Shown: one piece after another, positions 30,441 to 57,430 of the stretch | Layout of the letters: each line of letters opens with the position of its first letter | How positions within the stretch are numbered: position 1 is the stretch's first letter | Assembly: GCA_913047695.1 (NCBI GenBank) | Contig: CAJWUI010000003.1 | Span: forward strand, 1-64,000 | From: an uncultured Bacteroidota bacterium | GTDB taxonomy: Bacteria > Bacteroidota > Bacteroidia > Flavobacteriales > Flavobacteriaceae | DNA: 64,000 bases | Reading direction: 5' to 3' | Position numbers and translations under genes: made by a program | The notes under the pieces: model-generated | The model's database searches: none | What the model was told of the DNA's origin: nothing | What the model saw: the letters and a program-made list of their open reading frames with translations, nothing else

Positions 30441-30469
30441 AAACCCTCTCTTTATGAGAGGGTTTTTTT
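30441..30469. terminator. Strong Rho-independent terminator after the lipoprotein gene
   Basis: A perfect 10-bp stem, AAACCCTCTC with GAGAGGGTTT around the loop TTTAT, is followed by a T run on the plus strand. On the minus strand the A-rich flank also gives a T tract, so it can serve the convergent WecA-like gene, whose stop codon lies at 30468-30470. Confidence 0.9.
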
Positions 30470-31397
30470 ATATTAACGAAATAATAAGAAGTAAAGCAAA
30501 ACTTACACTAACTATTATTAAGGTTGAATTCAAATGAGAAAAATTTTTTGAAATTAACCAGTGGTGAAAATGGTTCTGATCAGCTGTAAATGGTGACTTT
30601 TTATTTTTAATTCTAATGGCTACAACTCTAATTAAATCCACCAGCGGATAAATTAGAATTGCTAAAGAAAGTAAAATTCTATTGACATCATTTAGATTAA
30701 TAAGTATGACGTTCGGGTTTAAAATATGAAAAATGAAAATAATATTTACACCACCTAAAAGCAAAGAACCTGCATCACCTAAAAAAATCTTTTTTTTCTT
30801 TTTAAAATTGAAAAAATAGAATGGTATGCAAATGAAGAGTAATATAAATCCTAAATCATACAAAGGGTCCTTTGGAAATAAGACATAAAGAAAGAAAAAA
30901 AAGTTTTTTACAGTCTCGCTTATTGCCAGACCATCAATTCCATCTATAAAATTGTAAGCATTAACTATTATTACAAAACCAACAGCAGTTATTAATTGGG
31001 AAAGTATCCAAGGAATTTCATATACTCCCATGAAACCATGTAATGATACAATTGCAAAACCCTGGTCTATTAAAATTTTTGCAACGATTAATTGCATTAA
31101 AAATTTAATTTTAAAGTCAGCTTGGTACAAGTCATCATAAACTCCGATTGTGAATAGAATTCCTAAAGGAATAAAAAGAGAATAATCAAAAAGCTCTATT
31201 TTTAAAAAGTAAAATAAAATAGATATTAAGAATAAAGTACTAAAAATACTTACACCACCACTTCTTGTTGCTATAGTTTTGTGAGAGGTACGATGATTAA
31301 AATCATCAAAGTATTTTTTTTTGACAAAAAAGTTTTGGACAATTACATGAAAAAATATAGACAAAAAAAATGCTAAAAAAATAACATAGAATTCCAT
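30468..31397 (-). CDS. Polyprenyl-phosphate sugar-1-phosphate transferase (WecA/MraY family)
   Basis: This 309-residue membrane enzyme has about 10 TM helices and transfers a sugar-1-phosphate (usually GlcNAc) to undecaprenyl phosphate, starting surface glycan synthesis. Visible motifs are GVYDDLYQADFKIKF (Asp-Asp), VNAYNFIDGIDGLA with the catalytic Asn/Asp cluster, IFLGDAGSLLLG, and the His-rich loop DQNHFHHWLI. It lies just outside the plus-strand polysaccharide operon, divergent from the ligase/polymerase genes, and could be the initiating transferase for this locus. Confidence 0.9.
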   Translation of the reverse strand: MEFYVIFLAFFLSIFFHVIVQNFFVKKKYFDDFNHRTSHKTIATRSGGVSIFSTLFLISILFYFLKIELFDYSLFIPLGILFTIGVYDDLYQADFKIKFLMQLIVAKILIDQGFAIVSLHGFMGVYEIPWILSQLITAVGFVIIVNAYNFIDGIDGLAISETVKNFFFFLYVLFPKDPLYDLGFILLFICIPFYFFNFKKKKKIFLGDAGSLLLGGVNIIFIFHILNPNVILINLNDVNRILLSLAILIYPLVDLIRVVAIRIKNKKSPFTADQNHFHHWLISKNFSHLNSTLIIVSVSFALLLIISLI

Positions 31398-37796: not shown

Positions 37797-38222
37797 ATGA
37801 GTAAACCAAAGGCAATAATTGTTTCAGGATATTTTAATCCTCTACATAGGGGACATATAGAATTATTTAAAAAAGCTAAGGCTTATGGCGATGTTCTTTG
37901 GGTTATTGTAAATAGTGATCTTCAAAGAAAATTAAAAGGAAGTAAGGAATTTATGGATGAGAATGAGAGATTAACTATTGTATGTGCTATCAAGTATGTT
38001 GATAGTGCTCTTATTTCTATTGATAGTGATAAAACTCAATGTTATACACTAGCTAAACTCGCAGATGATTATAATTTAAAGTATGATCTTTTTTTTGCTA
38101 ACGGAGGAGATCAAAATAATAACTCTATTCCTGAGATAGAAATATGTAAAAACAATAGCATTGGGTTAATTGAAGGATTAGGAGATAAGATTCAGTCCTC
38201 TTCTTGGCTACTTAATAGATAA
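37797..38222 (+). CDS. TagD/RfaE-like nucleotidyltransferase (cytidylyltransferase family)
   Basis: This 141-residue enzyme has the HxGH motif in SGYFNPLHRGHIELFKKAKA and the ERLTIVCAIKYVD block of nucleotidyltransferases that attach CMP or AMP to phosphorylated alcohols or sugars. The acceptor is unknown; polyol phosphate or ethanolamine-like groups are family possibilities. ISSTSK-type signature of TagD is replaced by a variant ending (QSSSWLLNR). It follows the cupin directly and precedes ugd. A decayed homologue is found at 40525-40961. Confidence 0.85.
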   Translation: MSKPKAIIVSGYFNPLHRGHIELFKKAKAYGDVLWVIVNSDLQRKLKGSKEFMDENERLTIVCAIKYVDSALISIDSDKTQCYTLAKLADDYNLKYDLFFANGGDQNNNSIPEIEICKNNSIGLIEGLGDKIQSSSWLLNR

Positions 38223-40524: not shown

Positions 40525-40961
40525 ATGAGTAAACTAAACAAATCATTGTATTCGTACATTTTAAACGAATCTGAAAAGGGTATTTGGAATATTTCAATAA
40601 TGCTAAAGCTAAGTCAAACATGCTTTTTTGGGCGAATAATATTGACTAATATGGAGAGCTATGGAGAATTAAGGATTTTCAGGATGAAAACAATTGCATG
40701 ATTACCATTTCTAACATTAAAGTGCTGAATAAGGTAATATTATCAATTGATTTTGACATATCTGTCGATAAGACTATTGAGTCAATTTTTTCTCAGTTTG
40801 GAGAGGTTTATGAGTTAGATTTTGCAAACGAAGATGATCCAAATAATGACACCGCTTTACTGAGACAAATTTATGAAATGATAGTTGATGGTCTAAAAGA
40901 TGGACTTGAAAATAAAATGCAGTCATTTAGTTGGCTGTTCAAAAAAAATAATAAATTTTAA
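40525..40961 (+). pseudogene. Decayed second copy of the TagD-like nucleotidyltransferase
   Basis: The 3' part reads FQDENNCMITISNIKVLNKV, then ILSIDFD, LDFANEDDPNNDTAL and KMQSFSWLFKK. This lines up with MDENERLTIVCAIKYVDSAL, ISIDSD, LFFANGGDQNN and KIQSSSWLLN of the intact gene at 37797-38222. The same frame is broken upstream by TAA at 40647. The 5' part, starting ATGAGTAAAC exactly like the intact gene, lies in another frame that ends at 40701, and the HxGH motif is lost. It is a full-length relic with a frameshift and a stop. Divergence shows that it is a distant paralogue, not a recent copy. Confidence 0.8.
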
Positions 40962-40962
40962 A

Positions 40963-41931
40963 ATGAAAAAAGCTTTTATAACAGGAGTAGCTGGACAAGA
41001 TGGCAGTTATTTATCAGAATATCTATTAAAAAAAGGATATGAAGTTCATGGTCTAGTAAGAAGAAATTCTGTACCAGAAAATCAATCTTCAAGACTTGAT
41101 TTTATTAATAAAAATTTCCATACTCATTATGGAGACTTACTAGATGAAGGTGGTTTGAATAAATTAATTTCTGAATTAATGCCTGACGAAATATATAACT
41201 TAGCGGCACAGAGTCATGTTAGAATTAGTTTTGATATTCCACAATTTACCGCAAAAACAAATGCAATTGGAGTATTAAATATGCTTGAAGCTTTTAGATT
41301 AAATGCCCCGAATGCAAGATTCTACCAAGCAAGTTCTTCGGAGATGTTTGGGATTTCTGTTGATAGTGACGGTTTTCAGCGAGAAACAACACCTTTCATA
41401 CCTGTAAGTCCTTACGGGTGCGCCAAAGTTTTTGGATTTAACATATCAAATAATTACAAAAAAGCCTATAATCTTCATATTGTAAATGGAATTTTATTTA
41501 ATCATGAATCTCCTAGAAGAGGAAGTAATTTTGTAACTAACAAGGTTGTAAAAACAGCAGTAGAAATTAAAATGGGATTAAGAAAAAGGCTCGAACTTGG
41601 AAACATGGATTCATACAGAGATTGGGGACACTCAAAGGATTATGTTAGAGCAATGCATATGATTTTGAACAATGACAAACCAGATAATTATGTAGTTGCC
41701 ACAGGGAAAACTTTCTCCGTCAGGGAAATGGTAGAATACGTGTTTGGAAAGTTAAATTTGGATTTTAATAAATATGTTTTTCAAAATCCAAAATATTTAA
41801 GACCTGAAGAATTACCTTATTTAAAGGGAGATTCTTCTAAACTTAGAAATAATTTTGATTGGAAACCAGAGTATACATTTGAAACAATGTTGGATGAAAT
41901 GATTGTCTTTTGGAATAATGAACTTGGTTAA
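40963..41931 (+). CDS. gmd: GDP-mannose 4,6-dehydratase
   Basis: This short-chain dehydrogenase makes GDP-4-keto-6-deoxy-D-mannose. It has the NADP motif FITGVAGQDGSYLSEYLL, the Gmd hallmark GLVRRNS, YNLAAQSHVRISFD, the catalytic SSSEMFG and YGCAKVFG (Tyr-x-x-x-Lys), NHESPRRGSNFVTNK and GNMDSYRDWGHSKDYVRAM. The frame is open from 40900 inside the pseudogene; ATG 40963 gives the proper N-terminus and 322 residues, at the short end for the family. Likely feeds the adjacent DegT-type aminotransferase. Confidence 0.94.
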   Translation: MKKAFITGVAGQDGSYLSEYLLKKGYEVHGLVRRNSVPENQSSRLDFINKNFHTHYGDLLDEGGLNKLISELMPDEIYNLAAQSHVRISFDIPQFTAKTNAIGVLNMLEAFRLNAPNARFYQASSSEMFGISVDSDGFQRETTPFIPVSPYGCAKVFGFNISNNYKKAYNLHIVNGILFNHESPRRGSNFVTNKVVKTAVEIKMGLRKRLELGNMDSYRDWGHSKDYVRAMHMILNNDKPDNYVVATGKTFSVREMVEYVFGKLNLDFNKYVFQNPKYLRPEELPYLKGDSSKLRNNFDWKPEYTFETMLDEMIVFWNNELG

Positions 41932-42001
41932 CATGAAATTAAATGAATAGAAAACTAAATTTTAAAAGTTTAGGATCATTTTGTTTAAATGAAAATATAT
42001 T

Positions 42002-43105
42002 ATGAAAATACCACAATTTAAACCCTACATAGGCGCAGAAGAATACAAAAACATCAAAGAATGTTTTGATAACAATTGGGTGACTGAGGGTAAAAAAAGT
42101 AAAGAATTTGTCAATCAACTTAATGAATTGGTCGGTGTCAAATACGGTGTACTAGCTCCTAATGGTACACTCTCACTTTACCTAGGCCTTAAGGCTTTAG
42201 GAATTGGTAGTGGTGATGAAGTTATTGTACCAAACTTTTCATTTTATGCATCTGCCTCTTCAGTTATAATGGCAGGAGCTAAACCTGTTTTTGCAGAAGT
42301 TGATATTGAAAATTTGCAAGTAAATATAAATCAAGTTGAAAAAAAGATCACAAGAAAAACAAAAGCAATAATGCCTGTCCATGTATATGGAATGTCCTGT
42401 GATATTGAAAAAATAATGCAACTTTCAAAAAAATATAAATTAAAAATAATTGAAGATGCAGCCCAAGGGATTGGCTTAAAATATAAAGGAAAACATGTTG
42501 GTTCATTTGGTGAAATTGGAAGTTTTTCTTTTTTTGCTGATAAGACAATTACTACTGCCGAAGGTGGATATTTGTGTACAGATAGTCAAGATATTTACAA
42601 TAAGCTTCTATATCTTAGAAATCAAGGGCGAATAAATCGCGGATCATTTATACATCCCGAATTAGGATTTAATTTTAGGATGAATGATATCCAATCCTCT
42701 ATGGGATTGGCGCAATTAAAGAAACTTGATTTCATTATTAAAGCAAAAAATGAAAACTATGCTTTGTATAATCAAAATCTAAAACAAGAAAAGTTTAAGA
42801 TAATAAAACCAATAGAGGGATCAACTTTTGTACCCTTTAGAATTGCAATACTATTTGATGACATTTTTCAAAAGGAAAAAACTGAAAAAGAGTTAAATCT
42901 TGGGGGTGTAGAAACAAGAACTTTTTTCTATCCCTTAGATAGGCAACCACAATTTAAAAGAAAATATAATTTATTTTTCAAACCAAAAAAAGATTCAGTT
43001 TCTTTATCTCTTTATAAAAAAGGATTATGCTTACCCTCTTATGTCGGTCTTTCTGAAAAAGAGATTACTTACATATGCAAAAAAATCAATGAAAGTATAT
43101 TATGA
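42002..43105 (+). CDS. DegT/DnrJ/EryC1 sugar aminotransferase, GDP-perosamine-synthase-like
   Basis: This 367-residue PLP enzyme transfers an amino group to a keto sugar nucleotide. The PLP Lys181 lies in FFADKTITTAEGGYL; other blocks are NNWVTEGKKSKEF, LAPNGTLSLYLGLKALGIGS, IIEDAAQGIGLKYKG and the C-terminal THR-like KGLCLPSYVGLSEKEI. It follows gmd by 70 bases, so amination at C4 of GDP-4-keto-6-deoxymannose to GDP-perosamine (RfbE/Per type) is the best guess. It overlaps the next cupin gene by 4 bases. Confidence 0.87.
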   Translation: MKIPQFKPYIGAEEYKNIKECFDNNWVTEGKKSKEFVNQLNELVGVKYGVLAPNGTLSLYLGLKALGIGSGDEVIVPNFSFYASASSVIMAGAKPVFAEVDIENLQVNINQVEKKITRKTKAIMPVHVYGMSCDIEKIMQLSKKYKLKIIEDAAQGIGLKYKGKHVGSFGEIGSFSFFADKTITTAEGGYLCTDSQDIYNKLLYLRNQGRINRGSFIHPELGFNFRMNDIQSSMGLAQLKKLDFIIKAKNENYALYNQNLKQEKFKIIKPIEGSTFVPFRIAILFDDIFQKEKTEKELNLGGVETRTFFYPLDRQPQFKRKYNLFFKPKKDSVSLSLYKKGLCLPSYVGLSEKEITYICKKINESIL

Positions 43106-47911: not shown

Positions 47912-49360
47912 ATGAAAAAAAAGTCCATTTTCATTTATGGTGCCGGAGAGGCAGGTATATCTACAATTTTATCATTAGAAAAATTTACTGAAGAATTAAA
48001 AATTGTTGGATTTATTGATGATGATTTAAATAAAGTTGGTAGTAAAATAAATGGGATTAAAGTTTATTCTTTCAAACAATTTATTGAATTAAATTTTACA
48101 AATACTAAAACAGAAGTAATAATTTCATCAGAATTTATTAATAAAGACAAAAAGGAGAGTTTAATTGAATTTTGCAACAGTGAAAAAATTTTAGTAAAGA
48201 AGATTCCAGAATATAGATATTGGACTAATGAAAATGAATTTAAGCCAGAAGAAATTTCAAAGCTTAAAATCTCAGATTTATTAGAAAGAAATGAGATTAC
48301 TGTTAATTCCCAAAGAATAAAATCCTATTTATTTGATAAAGTAATATTAATCACAGGCGGATCTGGATCAATTGGGTCACAGATTGTTTTAAGTGTAGTT
48401 GAATACAATCCCAAGCATATAATAATAATTGATATTAATGAAAATTCACTTCATGGTTTAGAACTTGAATTAAAGGATTTAAATATTTTAACTAAGCTTA
48501 AAATAGAATTTTTTACAACTGATGTTAAAGATAAAGTAACATTAAGTCATGTTTTTGAAAAATTTAATCCGGAAATTATTTTTCATGCAGCAGCTTACAA
48601 GCATGTTCCAATGATGGAGAAAAATACATTAAGCGCTATCTCCAATAATATTTTAGGCACATTTAATTTATTAGAATTATCCAAAATTTATAATACAAGT
48701 AAGTTTGTTTTTATTTCGACGGATAAAGCTATCAATCCTACTAATATCATGGGTGCTACTAAAAGATATTCAGAGTGCTTGGTCCAATTTTTTGCACTTA
48801 ACAACCAAAATTGTATTTATGTTACTACACGATTTGGAAATGTACTAGGTTCAAACGGGTCAGTAATCCCGAGATTTCAAAGTTTAATTGAAAACTCTAA
48901 AGATATTGAAGTTACCCATCCAGATATTATAAGATATTTCATGACCATTGAAGAGGCTTGTAACTTAGTACTTGAGGCTAGTACAATGGCAAAAAATAGG
49001 GAAATTTTTGTGTTTGATATGGGGACACCATGTAAGATAAATGATTTGGCGATTAAACTAATTAAACTAAATGGTCTTGAACCAAATATTGATATTAAAA
49101 TAAAATATACAGGATTGAGACCTGGAGAAAAGTTAATGGAAGAACTATTAGCAAATGATGATAATACTATAAAAACTCACCATCCCAAAATTTTAAAAGC
49201 CAAATCCAAAAAAATAAACTATGATAAATATTTTGAAAATTTAAAATTACTCAGAAAATATGTTGAAGCAAATAATTCTCTAGAGGCTGTTAGGATCTTA
49301 AAAATTTGTTTGCCAGAGTTTAAAAGTAACAATAGTGAATATACAATTCTAGATAATTGA
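47912..49360 (+). CDS. CapD/WbpM-like nucleotide-sugar 4,6-dehydratase lacking the membrane domain
   Basis: This 482-residue protein has an N-terminal Rossmann domain (SIFIYGAGEAGISTILSLEK, GFIDDDLNKVGSKINGIKV) and a C-terminal SDR dehydratase (VILITGGSGSIGSQIVLSVV, FHAAAYKHVPMMEKN, FISTDKAINPTNIMGATKR with Met in place of the usual Tyr). Full WbpM/PglF proteins begin with four TM helices and run to about 600-660 residues; these are missing, so it is predicted soluble. It may make UDP-4-keto-6-deoxy-GlcNAc from UDP-GlcNAc. Confidence 0.88.
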   Translation: MKKKSIFIYGAGEAGISTILSLEKFTEELKIVGFIDDDLNKVGSKINGIKVYSFKQFIELNFTNTKTEVIISSEFINKDKKESLIEFCNSEKILVKKIPEYRYWTNENEFKPEEISKLKISDLLERNEITVNSQRIKSYLFDKVILITGGSGSIGSQIVLSVVEYNPKHIIIIDINENSLHGLELELKDLNILTKLKIEFFTTDVKDKVTLSHVFEKFNPEIIFHAAAYKHVPMMEKNTLSAISNNILGTFNLLELSKIYNTSKFVFISTDKAINPTNIMGATKRYSECLVQFFALNNQNCIYVTTRFGNVLGSNGSVIPRFQSLIENSKDIEVTHPDIIRYFMTIEEACNLVLEASTMAKNREIFVFDMGTPCKINDLAIKLIKLNGLEPNIDIKIKYTGLRPGEKLMEELLANDDNTIKTHHPKILKAKSKKINYDKYFENLKLLRKYVEANNSLEAVRILKICLPEFKSNNSEYTILDN

Positions 49361-50337
49361 TGAAAAAGCCATTAGTTTCTGTTGTAATGTCTGTTTATAA
49401 TTCGGAAAAATGGTTGTCATATAGTATTGAAAGTATAATTGAACAAACGTATACCAATTTTGAATTTGTTATAATAAATGATGGAAGCACTGATAATTCA
49501 AAAGTAATTCTAAATGAATATTCTGATAGAGATAAAAGAATATTAGTAATTCACCAAAAAAATATTGGTTTAACCAAATCATTAATAAAAGCAATTAAAC
49601 TTTCTAAAGGAGATATTATTGTAAGAATTGATGCAGATGATCTATCATCTAAAGAAAGGATAGAACAGCAATTAAAAGAATTAGAAAAAAAAAAATTAGA
49701 CCTTATTGCTACTAATTTTTCTTTAATTGATATAAATGGTGAAAAAATTAAATATTTTGATATAAGAAAAAAACAAGAGGAAATTTTGGAGATATTACTT
49801 GGAGGGAATAGTTTTTTCCCTCACTCAAGTGTTATGTTTAAAAAAGAAGCTTATTTGAAATTGGGAGGCTATAATTTATTTTTTAATAAGTCTCAAGATA
49901 TTGACTTATGGATAAGGTTCATTCAAAAAAATTATAAAATTGGAGTTTGCAGTTTAAATAAGCCTTTAAATTTTATAAGAATTCATGAAGAACAAATAAC
50001 TCATAAAAATGATAATGATATTTTTACATCAATCTCAATTTTAAATTTTTATTGCAGAAGTCAAAATCAATTAGAGATTTCGGAGTATAAATTTGAAGAT
50101 AAATTAAAAGCTATAGATCGAATAAAAAAAAGTAAGTATTATCAGACAATCAACACAAAAAACAAAATTAGATTCATTAAAAAATTTTTTTTTTCGAGGG
50201 ATTTTTTAAATATTATTAAAGACTTATTTGGCACTCATTCATTCAGATTAATAAAATATTTTAGAATTGTTTTGATGCAAGACAGGGAGATATATAAGCG
50301 TTTAGCTAATGAAATACTTTTTAGAAATGAATTTTAA
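49360..50337 (+). CDS. GT2 family glycosyltransferase
   Basis: This 325-residue GT-A enzyme begins VSVVMSVYNSEKWLSYSIES, then FEFVIINDGSTDNS, the DxD-type IVRIDADDLSSKERIEQQ, and the acceptor-side segment FFPHSSVMFKKEAYLKLGGY. It adds one sugar of the repeat unit at the cytoplasmic face. ATG 49360 overlaps the preceding TGA (TGATG), fitting translational coupling. Donor and linkage are not predictable. Confidence 0.9.
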   Translation: MKKPLVSVVMSVYNSEKWLSYSIESIIEQTYTNFEFVIINDGSTDNSKVILNEYSDRDKRILVIHQKNIGLTKSLIKAIKLSKGDIIVRIDADDLSSKERIEQQLKELEKKKLDLIATNFSLIDINGEKIKYFDIRKKQEEILEILLGGNSFFPHSSVMFKKEAYLKLGGYNLFFNKSQDIDLWIRFIQKNYKIGVCSLNKPLNFIRIHEEQITHKNDNDIFTSISILNFYCRSQNQLEISEYKFEDKLKAIDRIKKSKYYQTINTKNKIRFIKKFFFSRDFLNIIKDLFGTHSFRLIKYFRIVLMQDREIYKRLANEILFRNEF

Positions 50338-51535
50338 ACAAACTTTACAAACCACACATGATTCTTTTTACGTATACAATGAAGACAATCTTGTAAATAA
50401 CTTCAATGAATTTTTAAAATCATTTAAATTATCATATGATAATGTAGAAATAGCATATTCTTTTAAAACAAATTATTTACCTGAAATTTGTAAAAAAATC
50501 AACGATTTGGGAGGTATTTATGAGGTAGTTTCTGAGATGGAATTAGATTTGGCATTAAAATTAGAAAATAAGAAAAAGATAATTTTTAATGGGCCATATA
50601 AAACAAAAGAGGCAATAATGAAATCTCTTCTAAATGATGTAATCATTCACATTGATTCTTTAGACGAATTAAATATTATCTCAGAACTTTTAACATCTAA
50701 TGAACATATAAATTGTAACCTAGGAATCAGATTAAATTTGAGTTTTGCTTCTGACTCTATTTCCAGATTTGGAATTTGCCAATCAGAAATTAAAAAGATT
50801 TTAAAGTTAATTTCTTCAAATAATAGAATTGAATTAAAAGGGATAAGTTGTCACCTGCCAAATCGAGATTTGAAAAGTTTTGAATTTAGAACAAAAGAGA
50901 TCATTAAAATCTATGATTTTTATTTTAAAAATAAAATCCAATATATAGACTTAGGAGGAGGATTCCCTAGCATATTACAAGAAGATTTGATGAATCAATT
51001 AAAACTCAAAAATACAAACATAAAAGAGTTTGCTAAAAAAATATGTTCAATTTTAAATCAATATTTCAACAATAGCAAAATAATAAAAAAACCTAAACTT
51101 ATTTTAGAACCTGGGACTGCTTTAGTAGCAAATACTATGAGCTATTATTCAAAAATTATCTCAGAAAAAAAGATTAAAAATAAAATAATCTTATCATCTT
51201 CTGGCAGTAAGTTTAATTTTTTGGGAACAAATAATTCAAATCTAAATTTTCCATTTACAGAAATTTTAAATCCTGAATTCAAATCAAGAAAATTTAGAAA
51301 TGTTGATATTGCTGGATATACTTGTATTGAAAATGATTATTTGTTGCGAAATATATCATCTTCTCTTATTAAAGGAGATTATATTAAAATAGAAGATATA
51401 GGGTCATATTCAATTGTTATGAAACCACCTTTTATTTCTCCAAATGTTCCTATATTTAAGGTATTCGAAAATAAAATTTTAGAACTAAAAAGAAAAGAAA
51501 CCTTTCAGGATGTATTTAATACTTTCTTGATTTGA
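50309..51535 (+). CDS. Fold-type III PLP decarboxylase (diaminopimelate/ornithine decarboxylase family)
   Basis: This 408-residue alanine-racemase-fold enzyme has the PLP lysine in IAYSFKTNYLPEIC, the barrel His in ISCHLPNRD, the glycine-rich YIDLGGGFPSI, LILEPGTALVANT, and the family Cys/Asp motif GYTCIENDYL followed by IEDIGSYSIVM. It therefore decarboxylates an amino acid, but the lysine-pathway DapDC arginine pattern is not obvious, so its substrate is open. The start could instead be ATG 50327; both overlap the GT2 gene. It heads a three-gene cassette with the next two genes. Confidence 0.82.
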   Translation: MKYFLEMNFKQTLQTTHDSFYVYNEDNLVNNFNEFLKSFKLSYDNVEIAYSFKTNYLPEICKKINDLGGIYEVVSEMELDLALKLENKKKIIFNGPYKTKEAIMKSLLNDVIIHIDSLDELNIISELLTSNEHINCNLGIRLNLSFASDSISRFGICQSEIKKILKLISSNNRIELKGISCHLPNRDLKSFEFRTKEIIKIYDFYFKNKIQYIDLGGGFPSILQEDLMNQLKLKNTNIKEFAKKICSILNQYFNNSKIIKKPKLILEPGTALVANTMSYYSKIISEKKIKNKIILSSSGSKFNFLGTNNSNLNFPFTEILNPEFKSRKFRNVDIAGYTCIENDYLLRNISSSLIKGDYIKIEDIGSYSIVMKPPFISPNVPIFKVFENKILELKRKETFQDVFNTFLI

Positions 51536-52446
51536 TGGATTACTATTGCTATTTTAAGGATGATTATTTATTGGAAAAAGATGTTTACATACATCCTTTG
51601 TCTCCGTCCACACAATACGGATTAAATGTTTTTGAAGGGATTGGTGTTTATTTTGATTTTGAAACGGGGTGTTATAATATTTTAGAATTTGAAAAACATA
51701 TAAGTAGGTTTTTTGAGTCATCAAAAAGATTAAACTTAAACCACAAATATAAAATTAGTGAAATAGAGAAAATTATAAAATCCTTAATTATTAAAAACAA
51801 TTTTAAAACAGATATTTATTTAAAATTAGTCTTTTTAGTATCAAAAAAAGGAAGTTGGGCTGACATTTATGATGCAGACTTATTAGTTTGTTCATGGCCA
51901 AAACAAAGAAAATCTGCTTCCCAGAGGGAGAAGTTAAATCTTCATATTTCATCATGGGAAAGAATAAGTGAAAAATCAATGCCTCCTTCAATAAAAGTTG
52001 GAGCAAATTATATTAATAGTAGATATGCATTTTTAGAGGCAAAACAAAATAATTTTGATCTTCCCTTATTTTTAAACAAAAAAGGTAATATTTCTGAATC
52101 ATCAGGGGCTTGTGTTATTTTAATTAAAGAAAATAAGCTATTTACACCATCAAGTTCTTCAGACATCCTAAACAGCATAACAAGACAAATGATTTTTGAC
52201 TTTTCATCAAAAATCTTAGGATATGAAGTATTTGAAAAAGAAATTACGGTTAAAGAATTATTTAGAGCTGATGAAGTGTTTTTATGTGGGACAGCTATAG
52301 AAATATCTCTTGTTGAGAACATTAATAAAATTAGTTATAACACAGAACCTAACAACAATTCTCAAAAGATTAAAAACTATTTTTTTGAAATAGTCAATAA
52401 TAAAACACCTTATTCTAATTTATACTTAAAAAAAATTAAATTTTGA
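51535..52446 (+). CDS. Class IV (fold-type IV) PLP aminotransferase, IlvE-like
   Basis: This 303-residue enzyme resembles branched-chain amino acid aminotransferases: QYGLNVFEGIGVYFDFETGC, the PLP lysine in IKVGANYINSRYAFLEA, and NISESSGACVILIK, then SITRQMIFDF and FLCGTAIEISLV. It is well diverged from housekeeping IlvE and sits in a polysaccharide operon, so a special 2-oxo acid is a likelier substrate. ATG 51535 overlaps the previous TGA by one base (TGATG). Confidence 0.83.
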   Translation: MDYYCYFKDDYLLEKDVYIHPLSPSTQYGLNVFEGIGVYFDFETGCYNILEFEKHISRFFESSKRLNLNHKYKISEIEKIIKSLIIKNNFKTDIYLKLVFLVSKKGSWADIYDADLLVCSWPKQRKSASQREKLNLHISSWERISEKSMPPSIKVGANYINSRYAFLEAKQNNFDLPLFLNKKGNISESSGACVILIKENKLFTPSSSSDILNSITRQMIFDFSSKILGYEVFEKEITVKELFRADEVFLCGTAIEISLVENINKISYNTEPNNNSQKIKNYFFEIVNNKTPYSNLYLKKIKF

Positions 52447-53255
52447 ATTTTATCCAAATCACTAATAATCCTGATTTAGCTGAATATATTTCAAGCTGTG
52501 GAGTTCAAAATATAATGATTGATATAGAGACAGTTGGAAAAAATGAGCGTCAAAAGAATCTAGATACAGTCAAATCTAAACATCAACTTAAAGATATAAT
52601 TGAAGTAAAAAACAGAATAAAAAAGTATAATGGTAAAATAATTACAAGGGTTAATCCATATTATAAAAATTCTAAATTTGAAGTAGAAGCCTCAATAAAC
52701 TTAGGAACGGACTACATAATGTTACCAATGTTTAAATCAGTACACGAGGTAAAACAAATAATAAATTTAATAAATGACAGGGTAAAATTGATTTTACTTT
52801 TTGAAACTCCAGCCTCGATAATAAATATTGATAGTATACTAGAGTTGAATAAAATAGACGAGGTATTTATTGGGTTAAATGATTTAAGTATAGCATTTAA
52901 ACTTGATTTTATGTTTGAATTGTTACCGTCAAGTTTAATAGAATTTATTGTTTCAAAATTCAAAAACAAAGGTATCCCATTTGGAATAGGAGGAATTTCG
53001 AGAATTGGGGAAGGAACTTTAGATTCCCAACTTATTTTGTCTGAACATGTAAGATTGGGAAGTACTAAAGTTATAATTTCTAGATCATTTACCAATAGAG
53101 CAGAAAATTTGGATGAATTAAATAGAAACATTGACTATAAGAAAGAAATTGATTTGCTTTATGATGAATACAACAATTTAAAAAAAACTAGCCTGAAAGA
53201 GCTAGAGCTTAATCATATTAACGTAAGACGTAAAATTCAACAAATCATTAAATGA
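52443..53255 (+). CDS. HpcH/HpaI aldolase / citrate-lyase-beta family protein
   Basis: This 270-residue TIM-barrel enzyme has NIMIDIETVGKNERQ at the first metal-linked strand, KIITRVNPYY with the substrate Arg, ILLFETPASIINID with the metal-binding Glu, and VFIGLNDLSIAF with the metal-binding Asp. Such enzymes catalyse reversible aldol or Claisen reactions with pyruvate- or acetyl-type donors. Start is TTG, overlapping the aminotransferase stop (TTGA). Tight coupling with the aminotransferase and decarboxylase suggests one short pathway to an unusual amine or amino acid used in the glycan. Confidence 0.8.
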   Translation: MNFIQITNNPDLAEYISSCGVQNIMIDIETVGKNERQKNLDTVKSKHQLKDIIEVKNRIKKYNGKIITRVNPYYKNSKFEVEASINLGTDYIMLPMFKSVHEVKQIINLINDRVKLILLFETPASIINIDSILELNKIDEVFIGLNDLSIAFKLDFMFELLPSSLIEFIVSKFKNKGIPFGIGGISRIGEGTLDSQLILSEHVRLGSTKVIISRSFTNRAENLDELNRNIDYKKEIDLLYDEYNNLKKTSLKELELNHINVRRKIQQIIK

Positions 53256-54400
53256 ATATTATTCATGTATTTCCAATTTTTTCTATTTCAAAAGGAGGAG
53301 GCACCACATGGTTGATGTGTGAATTAGCAAAACAACAGTCAAAAGACCATAAAGTATCAATCCTTACAGGTTCTTATAATTTAGATAATAACTTGGTGAA
53401 AGAGATCAAAAAATTTGGAATAAACATTTTAATCTACAAGAGTTATTTTAATAGAATAGGTATTTATTTTATGCCGGGATTGATAATTGATAAAGCCATC
53501 TTTTCAAGCAAGAATGTTTTTCATCTTCATCTTTACAGAAGCATTCAAAATTTAATAATTCTAATAAAAGCAAGTTTATTTAATTCAAATTGTATCATTG
53601 ATGCACATGGATCTATTCCAAAGCATGGTATAAAAACATTTAAAAAAAATTTATTTGATTTTTTTTTTAAAAAATTAATTATAAATAAAACTAAAATGTT
53701 TATTGCGGAGAATGAATTAAGTTTTAATGAATGTATTTCTTTAGGTATAAACCCAAAGAAAATACAAATTATAAATCCGCCTTTTCCTGTTCATGATTTT
53801 AAAAATGTTATTAAACTGGATATACTTAAGAATGAATACAAAATAAAAGAGAAATACATTATTCTCTATTTTGGCAGGTTTCATTATATAAAGGGGATTG
53901 ATTTTTTAATTGACTCTTTTTTTGAGTTGAGCAAGAGGAGAAATGATATTCATTTAGTTTTAATGGGAAAAAATGATGGTTTTGAAAATAATTTAAATGA
54001 TCAAATTATAAAGTTAAATCTATCAAACATTATTACAAATATTGGTTTTAAAAAAGGAGTTGAAAAGAATTCCGTAATTAAAGAATCCTCTATTTGCGTT
54101 CAAGTTTCAAGATATGAACAAGGCGCTGGAGCTCCATTTGAAGCTGTATTAATTGGGACTCCAATAATTGTAAGTGATCATAGTGGGAGTGCAGAAGATG
54201 TAAGTAGATTAAATGCCGGATATTTAACAAAATTTGGTGATACAAATGCTCTTGCAGAAAAGCTTAACTTTGTTATAGAAAATTATCCAGAAGCAAAAAA
54301 AAAGACATACAATGCATCAAAAGCAATAATTAAAAATCAATCATTTGAATCAACTTTGAAAAAGTATCAAATTTTGTATGAGAATTCAGTTAATAATTAA
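53252..54400 (+). CDS. GT4 family glycosyltransferase
   Basis: This 382-residue GT-B enzyme has an N-terminal SKGGGTTWLMCELAKQQSKD and a GT4 donor domain with ILYFGRFHYIKGIDFLIDSF, NIGFKKGVEKNSVIKESSIC and QGAGAPFEAVLIGTPIIVSD carrying the Glu-x7-Glu-like motif. It overlaps the aldolase gene by 4 bases (ATGA). It adds a repeat-unit sugar; donor unknown. Confidence 0.9.
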   Translation: MNIIHVFPIFSISKGGGTTWLMCELAKQQSKDHKVSILTGSYNLDNNLVKEIKKFGINILIYKSYFNRIGIYFMPGLIIDKAIFSSKNVFHLHLYRSIQNLIILIKASLFNSNCIIDAHGSIPKHGIKTFKKNLFDFFFKKLIINKTKMFIAENELSFNECISLGINPKKIQIINPPFPVHDFKNVIKLDILKNEYKIKEKYIILYFGRFHYIKGIDFLIDSFFELSKRRNDIHLVLMGKNDGFENNLNDQIIKLNLSNIITNIGFKKGVEKNSVIKESSICVQVSRYEQGAGAPFEAVLIGTPIIVSDHSGSAEDVSRLNAGYLTKFGDTNALAEKLNFVIENYPEAKKKTYNASKAIIKNQSFESTLKKYQILYENSVNN

Positions 54401-54444: not shown

Positions 54445-55428
54445 ATGAAAAAAAATGCAACTTTACTGATAACAGGAGGCACAGGATCCTTTGGTAATGC
54501 TGTTTTAGATAAGTTTCTTGACTCAGACATTTCAGAGATAAGGATATTGTCTAGAGATGAAAAAAAACAGCATGACATGCGTGTTGTTTATAATAATCCG
54601 AAAATAAAATTTTTAATTGGTGATGTAAGAGATAAGCAGAGCTTGGTGTCAGCAATAAAAGGTGTTGATTATATATTCCATGCTGCTGCTCTAAAACAAG
54701 TGCCCTCTTGCGAATTTTTTCCTTTAGAAGCTGTAAAGACTAACGTAATAGGTACAGACAATGTTCTTTCAGTAGCAATAGAAAATAATGTCAAGAAAAT
54801 AATATGTTTAAGTACTGATAAGGCTGTCTATCCAATAAATGCAATGGGAACTTCCAAGGCCATGATGGAAAAAGTATTTGTTGCTAAATCTCGGATTTCA
54901 GACTCTACTATAATTTGTGGAACTCGATATGGAAACGTAATGGCATCAAGAGGTTCTGTAATTCCTCATTTTTATGACCAAATTAAATCTGGAAAGGAAA
55001 TTACTGTTACCGATCCAAACATGACAAGGTTCATGATGACTCTTGATGATGCAGTAAAGCTTGTTATGTTCGCTTTTGAGAATGGAAATGCAGGAGACAT
55101 TTTCATTCAAAAATCACCATCAACAACAATTGGTGAATTAGCTTCAACGATGAAAAAAATATATAATTCATCGGTTAAGATTAGAAATATTGGTATACGG
55201 CATGCAGAAAAAATCCATGAAACTCTTCTCACTAGAGAAGAAAGATTAGTAGCTGAGGAGCTTGATCATTATTTTAGGGTGCCTTCTGATAATAGAGATC
55301 TGAACTATAATAAATTCTTCTTTGAGGGTAAACAATCAAAGGATTTAGTAGACTATAATTCCTTTAATACTAATAGACTGTCTGAAAAAGAGCTTACCAA
55401 TCTATTGGCAAGTATTGGATACAAATGA
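54445..55428 (+). CDS. fnlA: UDP-GlcNAc 4,6-dehydratase/5-epimerase (FnlA/CapE/WbjB), UDP-L-FucNAc pathway
   Basis: This 327-residue SDR enzyme has LLITGGTGSFGNAVLDKFL, ILSRDEKKQHDMRVVYNN, FHAAALKQVPSCEFFPLEAV and CLSTDKAVYPINAMGTSKAM with the Met variant typical of these dehydratases. It performs the first step from UDP-GlcNAc toward UDP-L-FucNAc. FnlB and the C2-epimerase follow with 4-base overlaps, giving the standard three-gene set. Confidence 0.93.
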   Translation: MKKNATLLITGGTGSFGNAVLDKFLDSDISEIRILSRDEKKQHDMRVVYNNPKIKFLIGDVRDKQSLVSAIKGVDYIFHAAALKQVPSCEFFPLEAVKTNVIGTDNVLSVAIENNVKKIICLSTDKAVYPINAMGTSKAMMEKVFVAKSRISDSTIICGTRYGNVMASRGSVIPHFYDQIKSGKEITVTDPNMTRFMMTLDDAVKLVMFAFENGNAGDIFIQKSPSTTIGELASTMKKIYNSSVKIRNIGIRHAEKIHETLLTREERLVAEELDHYFRVPSDNRDLNYNKFFFEGKQSKDLVDYNSFNTNRLSEKELTNLLASIGYK

Positions 55429-56291
55429 AAATACTTATAATTGGAGCTGACGGAATGATAGGCCATAAAATGGCTCAATCACTTAGCTATTTTGATCTTT
55501 ATTTAAATTCAAGATTTCATTCTGATTACCTTCAAGAATATTTTCCAAAGTCGACTCATTCTAATTTTGATTTCTTAAATCAGAAAGTAGAGGTCCTCCT
55601 TAATAAAATCATACCAGATTATATAATTAATGCAGTAGGTATAACTATTAGGAGAGGTGCTTCTGATAATAAAGAAACTAACTTTATAAATTCTCAATTG
55701 TCCCAAAAAATTGACTTTTGGTGTAAGGAAAACCAAAAAAAACAAATTTATTTTTCAACAGATTGCGTTTTTTCAGGGGATAAAGGGAATTATTACGACT
55801 ATGATTTACCTGATGCAAAAGATTATTACGGAATTTCTAAAGCTAAAGGAGAAATAAACTCTAATAACACACTAACTATAAGGTCTTCAATGATTGGAAG
55901 AGAAGTCTATAATAAGACTGAGCTTTTAGAATGGGTGATTTCAAATAAGAATAAAAAAATTAAAGGGTTCGATAATGCTATATATTCTGGGGTAACAACT
56001 TTTTGGATGTCATATGTTGTAAATGAAATTATAAGAAACTTCCCTGAATTATGCGGCTTATATAATATCTCCTCTCCACCTATTTCAAAGTATGATTTAA
56101 TAACTAAAATCAACACTTACTTTAAATTGTACATTGATATAGAAAGGGATTCCTCATATTACTCTAATAAAACCTTAAATTCGGATAGATTTTTTTCAGA
56201 AACAAATTTCAAAAAACCCAATTGGGATGAGATGCTCTCTGATTTATATTTAGATAGTGAGAAAAACAATAATTTATATAACCTAAAATGA
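55425..56291 (+). CDS. fnlB: NAD(P)-dependent reductase (FnlB/CapF/WbjC-like), UDP-L-FucNAc pathway
   Basis: This 288-residue RmlD-like SDR has ILIIGADGMIGHKMAQSL, PDYIINAVGITIRRG, YFSTDCVFSGDKGNYYDYDL and YYGISKAKGE (Tyr-x-x-x-Lys). It reduces the 4-keto intermediate made by FnlA. It lacks the C-terminal cupin found in longer CapF proteins (about 370 residues), so 3-epimerisation, if required, would have to be done by FnlA or another cupin. Confidence 0.87.
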   Translation: MKILIIGADGMIGHKMAQSLSYFDLYLNSRFHSDYLQEYFPKSTHSNFDFLNQKVEVLLNKIIPDYIINAVGITIRRGASDNKETNFINSQLSQKIDFWCKENQKKQIYFSTDCVFSGDKGNYYDYDLPDAKDYYGISKAKGEINSNNTLTIRSSMIGREVYNKTELLEWVISNKNKKIKGFDNAIYSGVTTFWMSYVVNEIIRNFPELCGLYNISSPPISKYDLITKINTYFKLYIDIERDSSYYSNKTLNSDRFFSETNFKKPNWDEMLSDLYLDSEKNNNLYNLK

Positions 56292-57430
56292 CTAAAGTAG
56301 TAACAATAGTTGGGACTCGACCAGAAATTATTAAACTCTCAAGAGTTATTCCAGAACTTGAAAAACATGTAAACCATGTGTTGGTTCACACAGGTCAAAA
56401 TTACGATTACGAATTAAATGAGATTTTTTTCAATGATCTAGGCATCAAAAAACCGGATTATTTTCTAAATGCTGTTGGTGGTTCAACTGCTCAGACCATT
56501 GGAAATATAATTTCAGAGTCTGATAAGGTTTTAGAAAAAGAAAAACCCGATGCAGTTCTAATTTACGGTGATACTAATTCCTGTCTTTCAGTTATCTCAG
56601 CCAAAAGAAGGCAAATACCAATTTTTCATATGGAAGCGGGGAACCGTTGTTTTGACCAAAGAGTTCCTGAGGAATTAAACAGAAAGATAGTAGACCACTT
56701 GAGTGACATAAATATGCCACTAACAGAACAGGCTCGTGATTACCTTATTGCTGAAGGGTTAAAACCTGAAAAAGTAATTAAAACTGGATCTTGCATGAAA
56801 GAAATACTACTCTACTACAAAGATAAAATCCAAAGTAGTGATGTTTTAAGTTTACTTAAAATTAAAAAAGGGGGCTATTTTATTGTGAGTTCTCACAGAG
56901 AGGAAAATGTAGATTACAAAGAAAATTTAATATCATTTATTGAGAGTTTAAATCATGTAGCAAAAACATACAAACTTCAGATTATTGTATCAACCCACCC
57001 AAGAACCAGACAAAGAATTGAAAAATTAAAAGAGATCAAAATTGATGACAAAATTGAGTTTTTAAAACCACTTGGTTTTTTTGACTATATAAAACTTCAG
57101 CAAAATTCAAAATGCGTTATTTCAGATAGTGGTACTATCTCAGAAGAGTCCTCAATTCTTGGATTTCCAGCAATTATGATCAGAGCTGCTCATGAGCGTC
57201 CAGAGGGAATGGATGAAGGGTCAGTGGTTATGTCGGGATTGGAGAAAAATAGAATTATTGAATCCTTAAACATGGTGACCAAACAGTTTGAATCGGGAAT
57301 TACTCCAAAGATTGTTAGCGATTATGATGTTGATAATGTGTCTTTGAAAGTTTCTAGAATCATATTAAGTTATATAGATTATATAAACAGTACTGTTTGG
57401 AAAAAAGATAGCTTCACTAGAATGGGATAA
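56288..57430 (+). CDS. wecB: UDP-N-acetylglucosamine 2-epimerase type enzyme (FnlC/WecB), UDP-L-FucNAc pathway
   Basis: This 380-residue non-hydrolysing epimerase has TIVGTRPEIIKLSRVIPEL, HTGQNYDYELNEIFF, YGDTNSCLSVISAKR, HMEAGNRCFDQRVPEELNR and SHREENVDY, plus SDSGTISEESSILGFPAI. In this context it acts as the last C2-epimerising step giving UDP-L-FucNAc (FnlC role). It overlaps fnlB by 4 bases. Confidence 0.93.
   Translation: MTKVVTIVGTRPEIIKLSRVIPELEKHVNHVLVHTGQNYDYELNEIFFNDLGIKKPDYFLNAVGGSTAQTIGNIISESDKVLEKEKPDAVLIYGDTNSCLSVISAKRRQIPIFHMEAGNRCFDQRVPEELNRKIVDHLSDINMPLTEQARDYLIAEGLKPEKVIKTGSCMKEILLYYKDKIQSSDVLSLLKIKKGGYFIVSSHREENVDYKENLISFIESLNHVAKTYKLQIIVSTHPRTRQRIEKLKEIKIDDKIEFLKPLGFFDYIKLQQNSKCVISDSGTISEESSILGFPAIMIRAAHERPEGMDEGSVVMSGLEKNRIIESLNMVTKQFESGITPKIVSDYDVDNVSLKVSRIILSYIDYINSTVWKKDSFTRMG

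Follow-up and report, generated by a model that had tools for sequence, protein, structure and literature searches.

In the biosynthesis of yersiniose and erwiniose, YerE-type thiamine diphosphate (ThDP) enzymes branch C4 of cytidine diphosphate (CDP)-4-keto sugars (PMC12247030), showing that nature uses this carbon of keto sugars as a branch point. A second chemistry that could reach this carbon is suggested by a cassette of three overlapping genes in a 64,000-nucleotide stretch of DNA (positions 1 to 64,000 of contig CAJWUI010000003.1, assembly GCA_913047695.1; hereafter the window) from an uncultured bacterium of the family Flavobacteriaceae. The genes encode a fold-III pyridoxal 5′-phosphate (PLP) decarboxylase (DC), a class IV aminotransferase (AT) and a remote HpcH/HpaI-type pyruvate aldolase (ALD). 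Judging from sequence, we put the probability that the cassette produces an amino sugar, branched at C4, for the surface glycan at roughly 45%; the acceptor, the reaction order and each chemical step are inferred. Like YerE (PMC12247030), ALD would place a carbon branch derived from a 2-oxo acid on C4 of a 4-keto nucleotide sugar destined for a surface glycan. The YerE donor is decarboxylated via ThDP, whereas ALD, from another superfamily, would keep the carboxyl group and leave a 2-oxo acid; a Pfam scan of the three cassette proteins gave no match to the ThDP-dependent carboligase family. An aldol step on a ketone has precedent, since HpcH aldolases take ketones with pyruvate, including dihydroxyacetone and the keto sugar L-erythrulose (PMC7610986).

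A sugar with a related branch is already described. Shewanellose, 2-acetamido-2,6-dideoxy-4-C-(3′-carboxamide-2′,2′-dihydroxypropyl)-D-galactose, is found in Shewanella putrefaciens A6 (PMC4052302), where it is reported with an 8-epilegionaminic acid derivative (PMC4052302, citing Carbohydr. Res. 2002, 337, 1119). With the carboxamide carbon taken as C3′, the branch is a hydrated −CH2−CO−CONH2, that is, an amidated pyruvate unit on C4. The genes for shewanellose are, to our knowledge, not known, and the mostly open-access literature searched, as far as its text was available, gave no description of them. Nor did that literature, searched for HpcH/HpaI aldolases with capsule or O-antigen, for branched sugars and for shewanellose, describe the present cassette, which agrees with an earlier, sequence-only reading of the window that knew of no glycan pathway with these three enzymes.

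The three enzymes and the route they suggest

Five genes lie head-to-tail on the plus strand of the window, as read from open reading frame (ORF) calls and Pfam families. They are a GT2 glycosyltransferase (49357..50337; PF00535), DC (50309..51535; PF02784), AT (51532..52446; PF01063), ALD (52443..53255; PF03328) and a GT4 glycosyltransferase (53252..54400; PF00534), so that one glycosyltransferase is directly upstream of DC and the other directly downstream of ALD. Adjacent ORFs overlap by 4 bases as called, and GT2 and DC by 29; alignment of DC homologues suggests that the true start of DC is a Met at ~50327. The sequence-only reading had described overlapping decarboxylase, aminotransferase and aldolase genes flanked by two glycosyltransferases, and the coordinates and Pfam families confirm this arrangement.

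ALD was assigned from its Pfam family, predicted fold and family alignment to a glycan-locus subfamily of the class II pyruvate aldolases. Its PF03328 score of 39.5 bits is weak, though above the 25-bit cut-off. The predicted structure has a pLDDT (predicted local distance difference test) score of 91.2; the best Foldseek match is the HpaI-pyruvate structure 4b5w (E 6.3e-11), and the model has the barrel of the pyruvate/phosphoenolpyruvate (PEP) superfamily. R69, E121 and D147 are invariant in 13 of the 13 family members aligned; we take E121 and D147 to be metal ligands and R69, paired with HpaI by eye, to be the substrate Arg. E29 is also invariant, and in none of the 13 members is it followed by His, the stretch being paired with HpaI by eye. 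ALD thus has in common with the HpcH/HpaI class II aldolases HpaI, YfaU/RhmA and GarL the PF03328 family, the barrel fold, the conserved Arg and the Glu/Asp metal-ligand motifs. It differs from them in its identity of 12–17% over the fold matches, in scores far under the NCBIfam cut-offs compared, in having (by eye) no His after the conserved Glu, in a 27-residue gap and in its place in glycan loci. The gap consists of 27 residues of a solved family member that are absent from ALD; it is bounded by two aligned blocks, of which the first matches weakly, and it may open the pocket.

AT scores 140.5 bits against PF01063 (Aminotran_4) and is 32–39% identical to six trio homologues. It keeps K155 within IKVGANY, and this lysine is invariant in all seven trio homologues. 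The best match in the PDB is 6h65, a branched-chain aminotransferase, and AT falls under the cut-offs of two IlvE-type NCBIfam models, with 207.9 bits against 279 for PRK06606 and 182.4 bits against 245.55 for the second.

DC scores 92.3 bits against PF02784, above the cut-off, and 18.1 bits against the C-terminal PF00278, below its cut-off of 23. It is 34–43% identical to six trio homologues. From the homologue alignment it keeps K53 (in YSFKTNY), H182, GGG at 216–218, C339 and Y367; K53, C339 and Y367, which are presumably the PLP Lys, the catalytic Cys and the C-terminal Tyr, are invariant in 7/7 homologues. These proteins form a subfamily of their own, with the motifs EPG[ST]A, C[IM]ExDY and GSYSxVxKPPFI. 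In all seven, EPG[ST]A replaces EPGR, which we take to be the usual motif and which is visible in the sequence matches of DC. The Arg of EPGR, a ligand of the PLP phosphate that is characteristic of the canonical LysA/ODC-type subfamilies, is therefore missing. The closest solved relative is the N-citrylornithine decarboxylase 7kh2. DC is well below the NCBIfam cut-offs both for the diaminopimelate decarboxylase LysA equivalog (126 bits against 297.9) and for the N-citrylornithine decarboxylase FslC (129.3 against 500). Among its best sequence matches are FslC and BtrK, which are likewise fold-III PLP decarboxylases and whose substrate is an amino acid forming part of a larger conjugate; DC differs from both in having EPG[ST] instead of EPGR and its own C[IM]ExDY motif, and in its score far under the FslC cut-off. 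The structure prediction for DC (mean pLDDT 67.9, with a poor C-terminal part) was left unused.

The proposed route would start from UDP-2-acetamido-2,6-dideoxy-hexos-4-ulose (UDP, uridine diphosphate). Two dehydratase genes on the plus strand are candidate sources of this 4-keto sugar: a WbpM-type UDP-HexNAc (N-acetylhexosamine) 4,6-dehydratase of 482 aa (47912..49360; PF02719, 356.9 bits; function by likeness) and an FnlA-type UDP-GlcNAc (N-acetylglucosamine) 4,6-dehydratase/5-epimerase (54445..55428; PF02719, 339.4 bits, with PF08485; named by likeness). ALD, as a metal-dependent pyruvate aldolase, would add the pyruvate enolate to the C4 ketone, giving a C4 that carries OH and −CH2−CO−COOH. 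AT would convert the 2-oxo acid of the branch to −CH2−CH(NH2)−COOH, and loss of the carboxyl group through DC would leave a 4-C-(2-aminoethyl) branch. The product in the window would be 4-C-(2-aminoethyl)-2-acetamido-2,6-dideoxyhexose; we know of no glycan that contains a 4-C-(2-aminoethyl) sugar. FnlA/FnlB/FnlC-like genes are present in the window and in two further genomes with the cassette (G742 and G816), and the sugar in these three may belong to the L series. The branched sugar would enter the chain through a dedicated initiating transferase (PGT) in four of the seven loci with all three genes, and through a flanking glycosyltransferase in the window, where GT2 or GT4 may transfer it because both keep their place in G742 (locus L012).

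Partner enzymes and initiating transferases of the aldolase

ALD is rare but widely distributed. Counting the query genome, and with genome samples that overlap, it was found in 8/395 genomes of the window's phylum, 2/395 of its order, 4/299 of the phylum group of an Oscillospiraceae metagenome-assembled genome (MAG) and 3/295 of the phylum group of an Acholeplasmatales MAG. A scan of public genome contigs added four loci, a plasmid scan two nearly identical Rhodobacterales loci and a phage scan one record, MT835705.1; no relatives were found in viral contigs. The phage-scan record (L111) is labelled "Bacteriophage sp." but by eye looks like bacterial chromosome (recA, recX-like, cysS), with the gene arrangement PGT-ALD-2-hydroxyacid dehydrogenase. 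The comparison below covers 20 ALD loci: 18 mapped genomes or records, in which the two plasmids are counted once (W01), together with MT835705.1 and with G756, in which two pieces at contig ends are counted as a single ALD.

The DC, AT and ALD trio occurs in seven of these 20 loci, all of them glycan loci in distant bacteria, and in three gene orders. The order DC-AT-ALD is found in the window, in an uncultured Bacteroidetes (L012, G742), in L032 (G405) and in L042 (G816). The Acholeplasmatales MAG (L011, G741) and L041 (G808) have ALD-DC-PGT-AT, and L021 (G319) has AT-PGT-DC-ALD. G319 and G405 share the window's phylum and order, and G808 and G816 belong to the phylum of the Oscillospiraceae MAG. 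The sequence-only reading had proposed synteny in other genomes as a check on the cassette, and the trio does stay together inside glycan loci. Moreover, the DC subfamily was present in 2/395 phylum genomes, both of them ALD genomes with DC at the same locus (Fisher p = 3.6e-4; the window is one of the two). The G808 locus also encodes, at 5668-8099 of L041, a PEP mutase/cytidylyltransferase fusion (PF13714, PF01467) and, by eye, a phosphonopyruvate-decarboxylase-like gene, which suggests phosphonate synthesis in the same glycan cluster.

The partners of ALD in the remaining loci bear on its product. Nineteen of the 20 loci hold a partner compatible with a 2-oxo-acid product. AT and DC fill this place in seven, a D-2-hydroxyacid dehydrogenase (PF02826 or PF00389) in six (G363, G112, G1138, G756, G744 and MT835705.1), an AsnB-type amidotransferase in five (G100, G159 and W01 by PF00733; G038 and G262 by phmmer labels), and a malate/L-lactate-type dehydrogenase (PF02615), fourth gene downstream, in one (G1098). 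No partner was recognised in the twentieth, G743, a close sister of G744. In G744, a GT4 glycosyltransferase fused to the D-2-hydroxyacid dehydrogenase lies next to ALD (L014 8822-10915; L089 494-2587). The trio locus of G319 has, in addition, an AsnB-type gene ~13 kb off. Because both kinds of 2-hydroxyacid dehydrogenase act on 2-oxo acids, the sequence of aldol reaction, amination and decarboxylation put forward in the sequence-only reading is a natural one. The pattern suggests a single aldolase whose finishing enzymes can be exchanged, its aldol product being the same throughout: outside the trio loci the dehydrogenases would reduce this product, or the AsnB type would amidate it to a shewanellose-like sugar. 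The ALD tree is poorly resolved (4/15 inner branches starred); the trio loci do not form one clade, and trio, dehydrogenase and AsnB labels are scattered, with the starred branches forcing at least two changes for the trio.

The AsnB-type loci provide the link to shewanellose. An aldolase and an AsnB-type amidotransferase acting on a 4,6-dehydratase product would give this sugar. All 5/5 AsnB loci have a NeuB-type gene no more than 16 kb from ALD, versus 1/13 other mapped loci (G363). The Fisher value for this contrast (p = 7e-4) overstates the case, the AsnB loci amounting to about three lineages and four of the 13 other loci (G319, G741, G808 and G816) being on contigs shorter than 19 kb. 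The AsnB and NeuB-type genes of these loci parallel the amidated C4 branch and the 8-epilegionaminic acid of the shewanellose glycan (PMC4052302). The window differs from this scheme in that AT and DC replace AsnB. If the proposal is correct, an aldol route would explain shewanellose.

Additional evidence comes from the initiating transferase, which reads the first sugar of a glycan chain. A PGT of family PF02397 lies within ~3 kb of ALD in 16/20 loci, and in three of the seven trio loci (G741, G808 and G319) it sits between DC and AT. A tree of 28 PGT sequences included four from beside the trio, five from beside AsnB, six from beside dehydrogenases and 13 others, 12 of which, out of 27 available, served as controls and came from the same genomes and record. 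The trio PGTs, two from the window's phylum and two from other groups, form one clade (support 98/97). The five AsnB-locus PGTs also form one clade, across phyla (96/93), and the six dehydrogenase-locus PGTs fall into three groups. None of the 13 other sequences is inside the trio or AsnB clades. In a first tree, the trio and AsnB clades had support of 98/97 and 87/78, respectively. PGT clades that follow partner type are expected if the cassette alters the first sugar before its transfer. The pattern points to, without proving, a modified sugar nucleotide, with the chemistry taking place on the sugar itself.

More tentatively, these observations may describe a system that is widespread and moves horizontally: a divergent aldolase would graft a pyruvyl branch on C4 of a 4-keto nucleotide sugar, exchangeable finishing enzymes and often a matching PGT would accompany it, and its amidated version would supply the route to shewanellose that is missing so far. 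From the gene content we regard this broader proposal as possible, at short of even odds. If true, the aldol route would be a second chemistry for C-branched sugars of bacterial surfaces beside the YerE-type ThDP enzymes, and branched sugars could be predicted from gene content in the glycans of very different bacteria. It would also provide natural aldolases that accept nucleotide-sugar ketones, which would be useful for making tertiary alcohols.

Objections and competing explanations

Several observations weigh against a C4-branched sugar. The first concern the supply of the 4-keto acceptor. In favour of the branched sugar, 9/19 loci have a WbpM-type dehydratase at most ~10 kb from ALD, the G741 copy being a contig-end fragment. 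Against it, there is no PF02719 dehydratase near ALD in 6/19 loci (G112, G038, G100, G743, G744 and plasmid W01), only the FnlA type is near ALD in G742 and G816, and G319 and G756 are contig-limited. The second concern DegT aminotransferases. On the supporting side, six of the nine WbpM-ALD loci have no DegT gene within 14 kb, and four have none over all available sequence (~20 kb either side in G1098 and G1138, short contigs in G741 and G808); G1098 and G1138 alone give an unambiguous pairing of WbpM with ALD in which DegT is missing. A DegT gene adjoins ALD in G743 and G744, with a PglD-like protein in G744, and an enzyme so placed would consume the C4 ketone. Further DegT genes lie 8 to 18 kb off in G112, G405 and G363, and the AsnB loci have theirs next to NeuB. 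Reductases indicate another fate for the 4-keto sugar in four loci: G808 has an RmlD-like one next to WbpM, and the window, G742 and G816 have the FnlB-like kind.

The aldolase itself raises further objections. HpcH aldolases do not accept hydroxyacetone, so their use of ketones is limited (PMC7610986). The VIA-align matches to ALD are pyruvate kinases throughout the best 50 listed. The sequence-only reading had credited each enzyme with its catalytic residues; this holds for DC, for AT and for R69, E121 and D147 of ALD, but by eye ALD has no His at the position that His occupies in HpaI. The Glu-His pair of AbHpaI is Glu46 and His47 (PMC8560999). As for the partners, the AsnB of G100 (L018) passes the curated cut-off for ordinary asparagine synthase (442.8 versus 267.1 bits), 4/5 AsnB loci contain two AsnB-type genes, and the name of shewanellose can be read as giving either a C3 or a C4 branch. 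There is no PGT near ALD in the window, G742, G816 or G743. No PF02397 PGT was found in the window genome (assembly G000; 1.96 Mb, 18 contigs, 89% complete), which has instead a WecA/WbpL-like polytopic sugar-phosphate transferase (30468..31397, minus strand; PF00953). Finally, the PGT clades could reflect inheritance of the whole cassette as a block rather than specificity for the sugar.

The main competitor is the route favoured in the sequence-only reading, in which a small free aldehyde is the acceptor of pyruvate in the ALD reaction, the resulting 4-hydroxy-2-oxo acid is aminated by AT, and DC yields an amino alcohol (unless the sequence ends with AT, at a hydroxy amino acid). The product would then be attached to the glycan, for instance as a uronic acid amide or, after reduction in the dehydrogenase loci, as an N-acyl group. 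All the gene families fit. The UDP-sugar dehydrogenase and DegT genes of the window could supply a uronic acid or amino sugar carrier, and an N-acyl group would agree with the DegT and PglD genes that adjoin ALD in G744. In vitro cascades of aldolase and transaminase to 2-amino-4-hydroxybutanoic acid exist, according to a reference title in PMC7610986. Such RhmA and transaminase cascades run the first two reactions in the cassette's order but are man-made, use small free substrates, have no decarboxylase noted in the excerpts of PMC7610986 and stand outside any glycan context. By eye, without a systematic search, no ligase or acyl-activating gene is common to the trio loci, of which G741 is a contig of 4.6 kb. 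Free small-molecule chemistry also leaves unexplained the PGT between trio genes, the PGT that follows partner type and the GT4-dehydrogenase fusion. For these reasons attachment of a preformed amino alcohol is less well supported than chemistry on the sugar, and we consider it unlikely, although it is the strongest of the alternatives. Even if it were right, the cassette and its exchangeable partners would be a testable gene-to-glycan code.

A different acceptor has also to be considered. Pyruvate could be added by ALD to a sugar that is an aldehyde, or to a sugar phosphate. A 2-keto-3-deoxy (ulosonic-like) acid would result, and the partner enzymes would reduce it, amidate it, or aminate and decarboxylate it. 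The enzyme class to which ALD belongs usually accepts aldehyde sugars such as glyceraldehyde and erythrose (PMC7610986), and a NeuB-type gene is present in six mapped ALD loci; NeuB-type synthases, however, can already serve ulosonic acids in those six, and the adjacency of PGT and WbpM is left without explanation. This route appears improbable.

Still less probable is that the three genes are unrelated housekeeping or pseudo-functional neighbours. AT is the point in favour: a search of the 89%-complete window genome for a further branched-chain aminotransferase gave one weak match (32 bits) and no good one, and the cassette AT might double as IlvE. Against it stand the seven trio loci in distant bacteria, the position of DC and AT under the cut-offs of the NCBIfam housekeeping models, and a lysA-like gene elsewhere in the window genome that is 26% identical to DC. 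In a DC search of seven genomes or records, four cassette copies scored 264 to 337 bits versus 40 to 54 for three lysA-like proteins. Of the two enzymes for which the sequence-only reading had allowed a purely housekeeping role, DC is unlikely to have one, and AT could also serve housekeeping. Least probable of all is a siderophore-like pathway to a citryl-amine, with ALD acting as the citrate synthase SbnG (4tv5, among the ALD fold matches) and DC as the N-citrylornithine decarboxylase that is its best solved relative, which was set aside, since the IucA/IucC synthetase family (PF04183) is found in 0/7 trio genomes (several incomplete), the loci are glycan clusters, and pyruvate aldolases and pyruvate kinases match ALD equally well or better among the matches listed.

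Relatives of the decarboxylase and neighbouring genes

Within the 395 phylum genomes, the DC profile exceeds 300 bits only in the window and G319, both of which were profile members and so favoured by it. The next best match in the phylum, at 254 bits, is without the DC subfamily motifs. A wider clade of 26 phylum genomes (207 to 254 bits) was rejected as another family, with CM[NQ]ID, not C[IM]ExDY, in all 18 loci read. By eye, three neighbourhoods of that clade (L067-L069; G255, G031 and G216) contain an ATP-grasp protein together with a membrane protein whose end is peptidase-like, in a non-glycan setting. Searches for DC relatives gave no match in plasmids (E up to 1e-30) or phages (E up to 1e-20), and a PHROGs search found nothing. 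Three remote relatives were found in IMG/VR viral contigs; two of these (L108 867-2084 and L109 308-1471) have 30% identity, carry EPG[IT] and C[TI]E[IT]D, and by eye lie a few genes from terminase-like genes. They may be phage DNA-modification decarboxylases.

Downstream of GT4 and the FnlA-type gene, the plus strand of the window encodes an RmlD-like reductase in the FnlB position (55425..56291; PF04321) and a WecB/FnlC-like 2-epimerase named by eye (56288..57430), which has counterparts in G742 and G816. Also around the cassette, by likeness, are a UDP-sugar dehydrogenase, a GMD-like dehydratase, a DegT aminotransferase, a flippase, an MBOAT protein and RmlA/C/D. The GMD-like dehydratase is followed by the DegT aminotransferase at 40900-43105, which by likeness suggests guanosine diphosphate (GDP)-perosamine or a related amino sugar in the same glycan. 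A tandem pair of paralogous genes (31475-33808 and 33765-36119) encodes membrane proteins with tetratricopeptide repeat (TPR)-like ends that are, by eye, of the O-antigen ligase/polymerase type. At the start of the glycan cluster, a cytidylyltransferase-like protein (37797-38222; PF01467) could activate a phosphorylated small alcohol.

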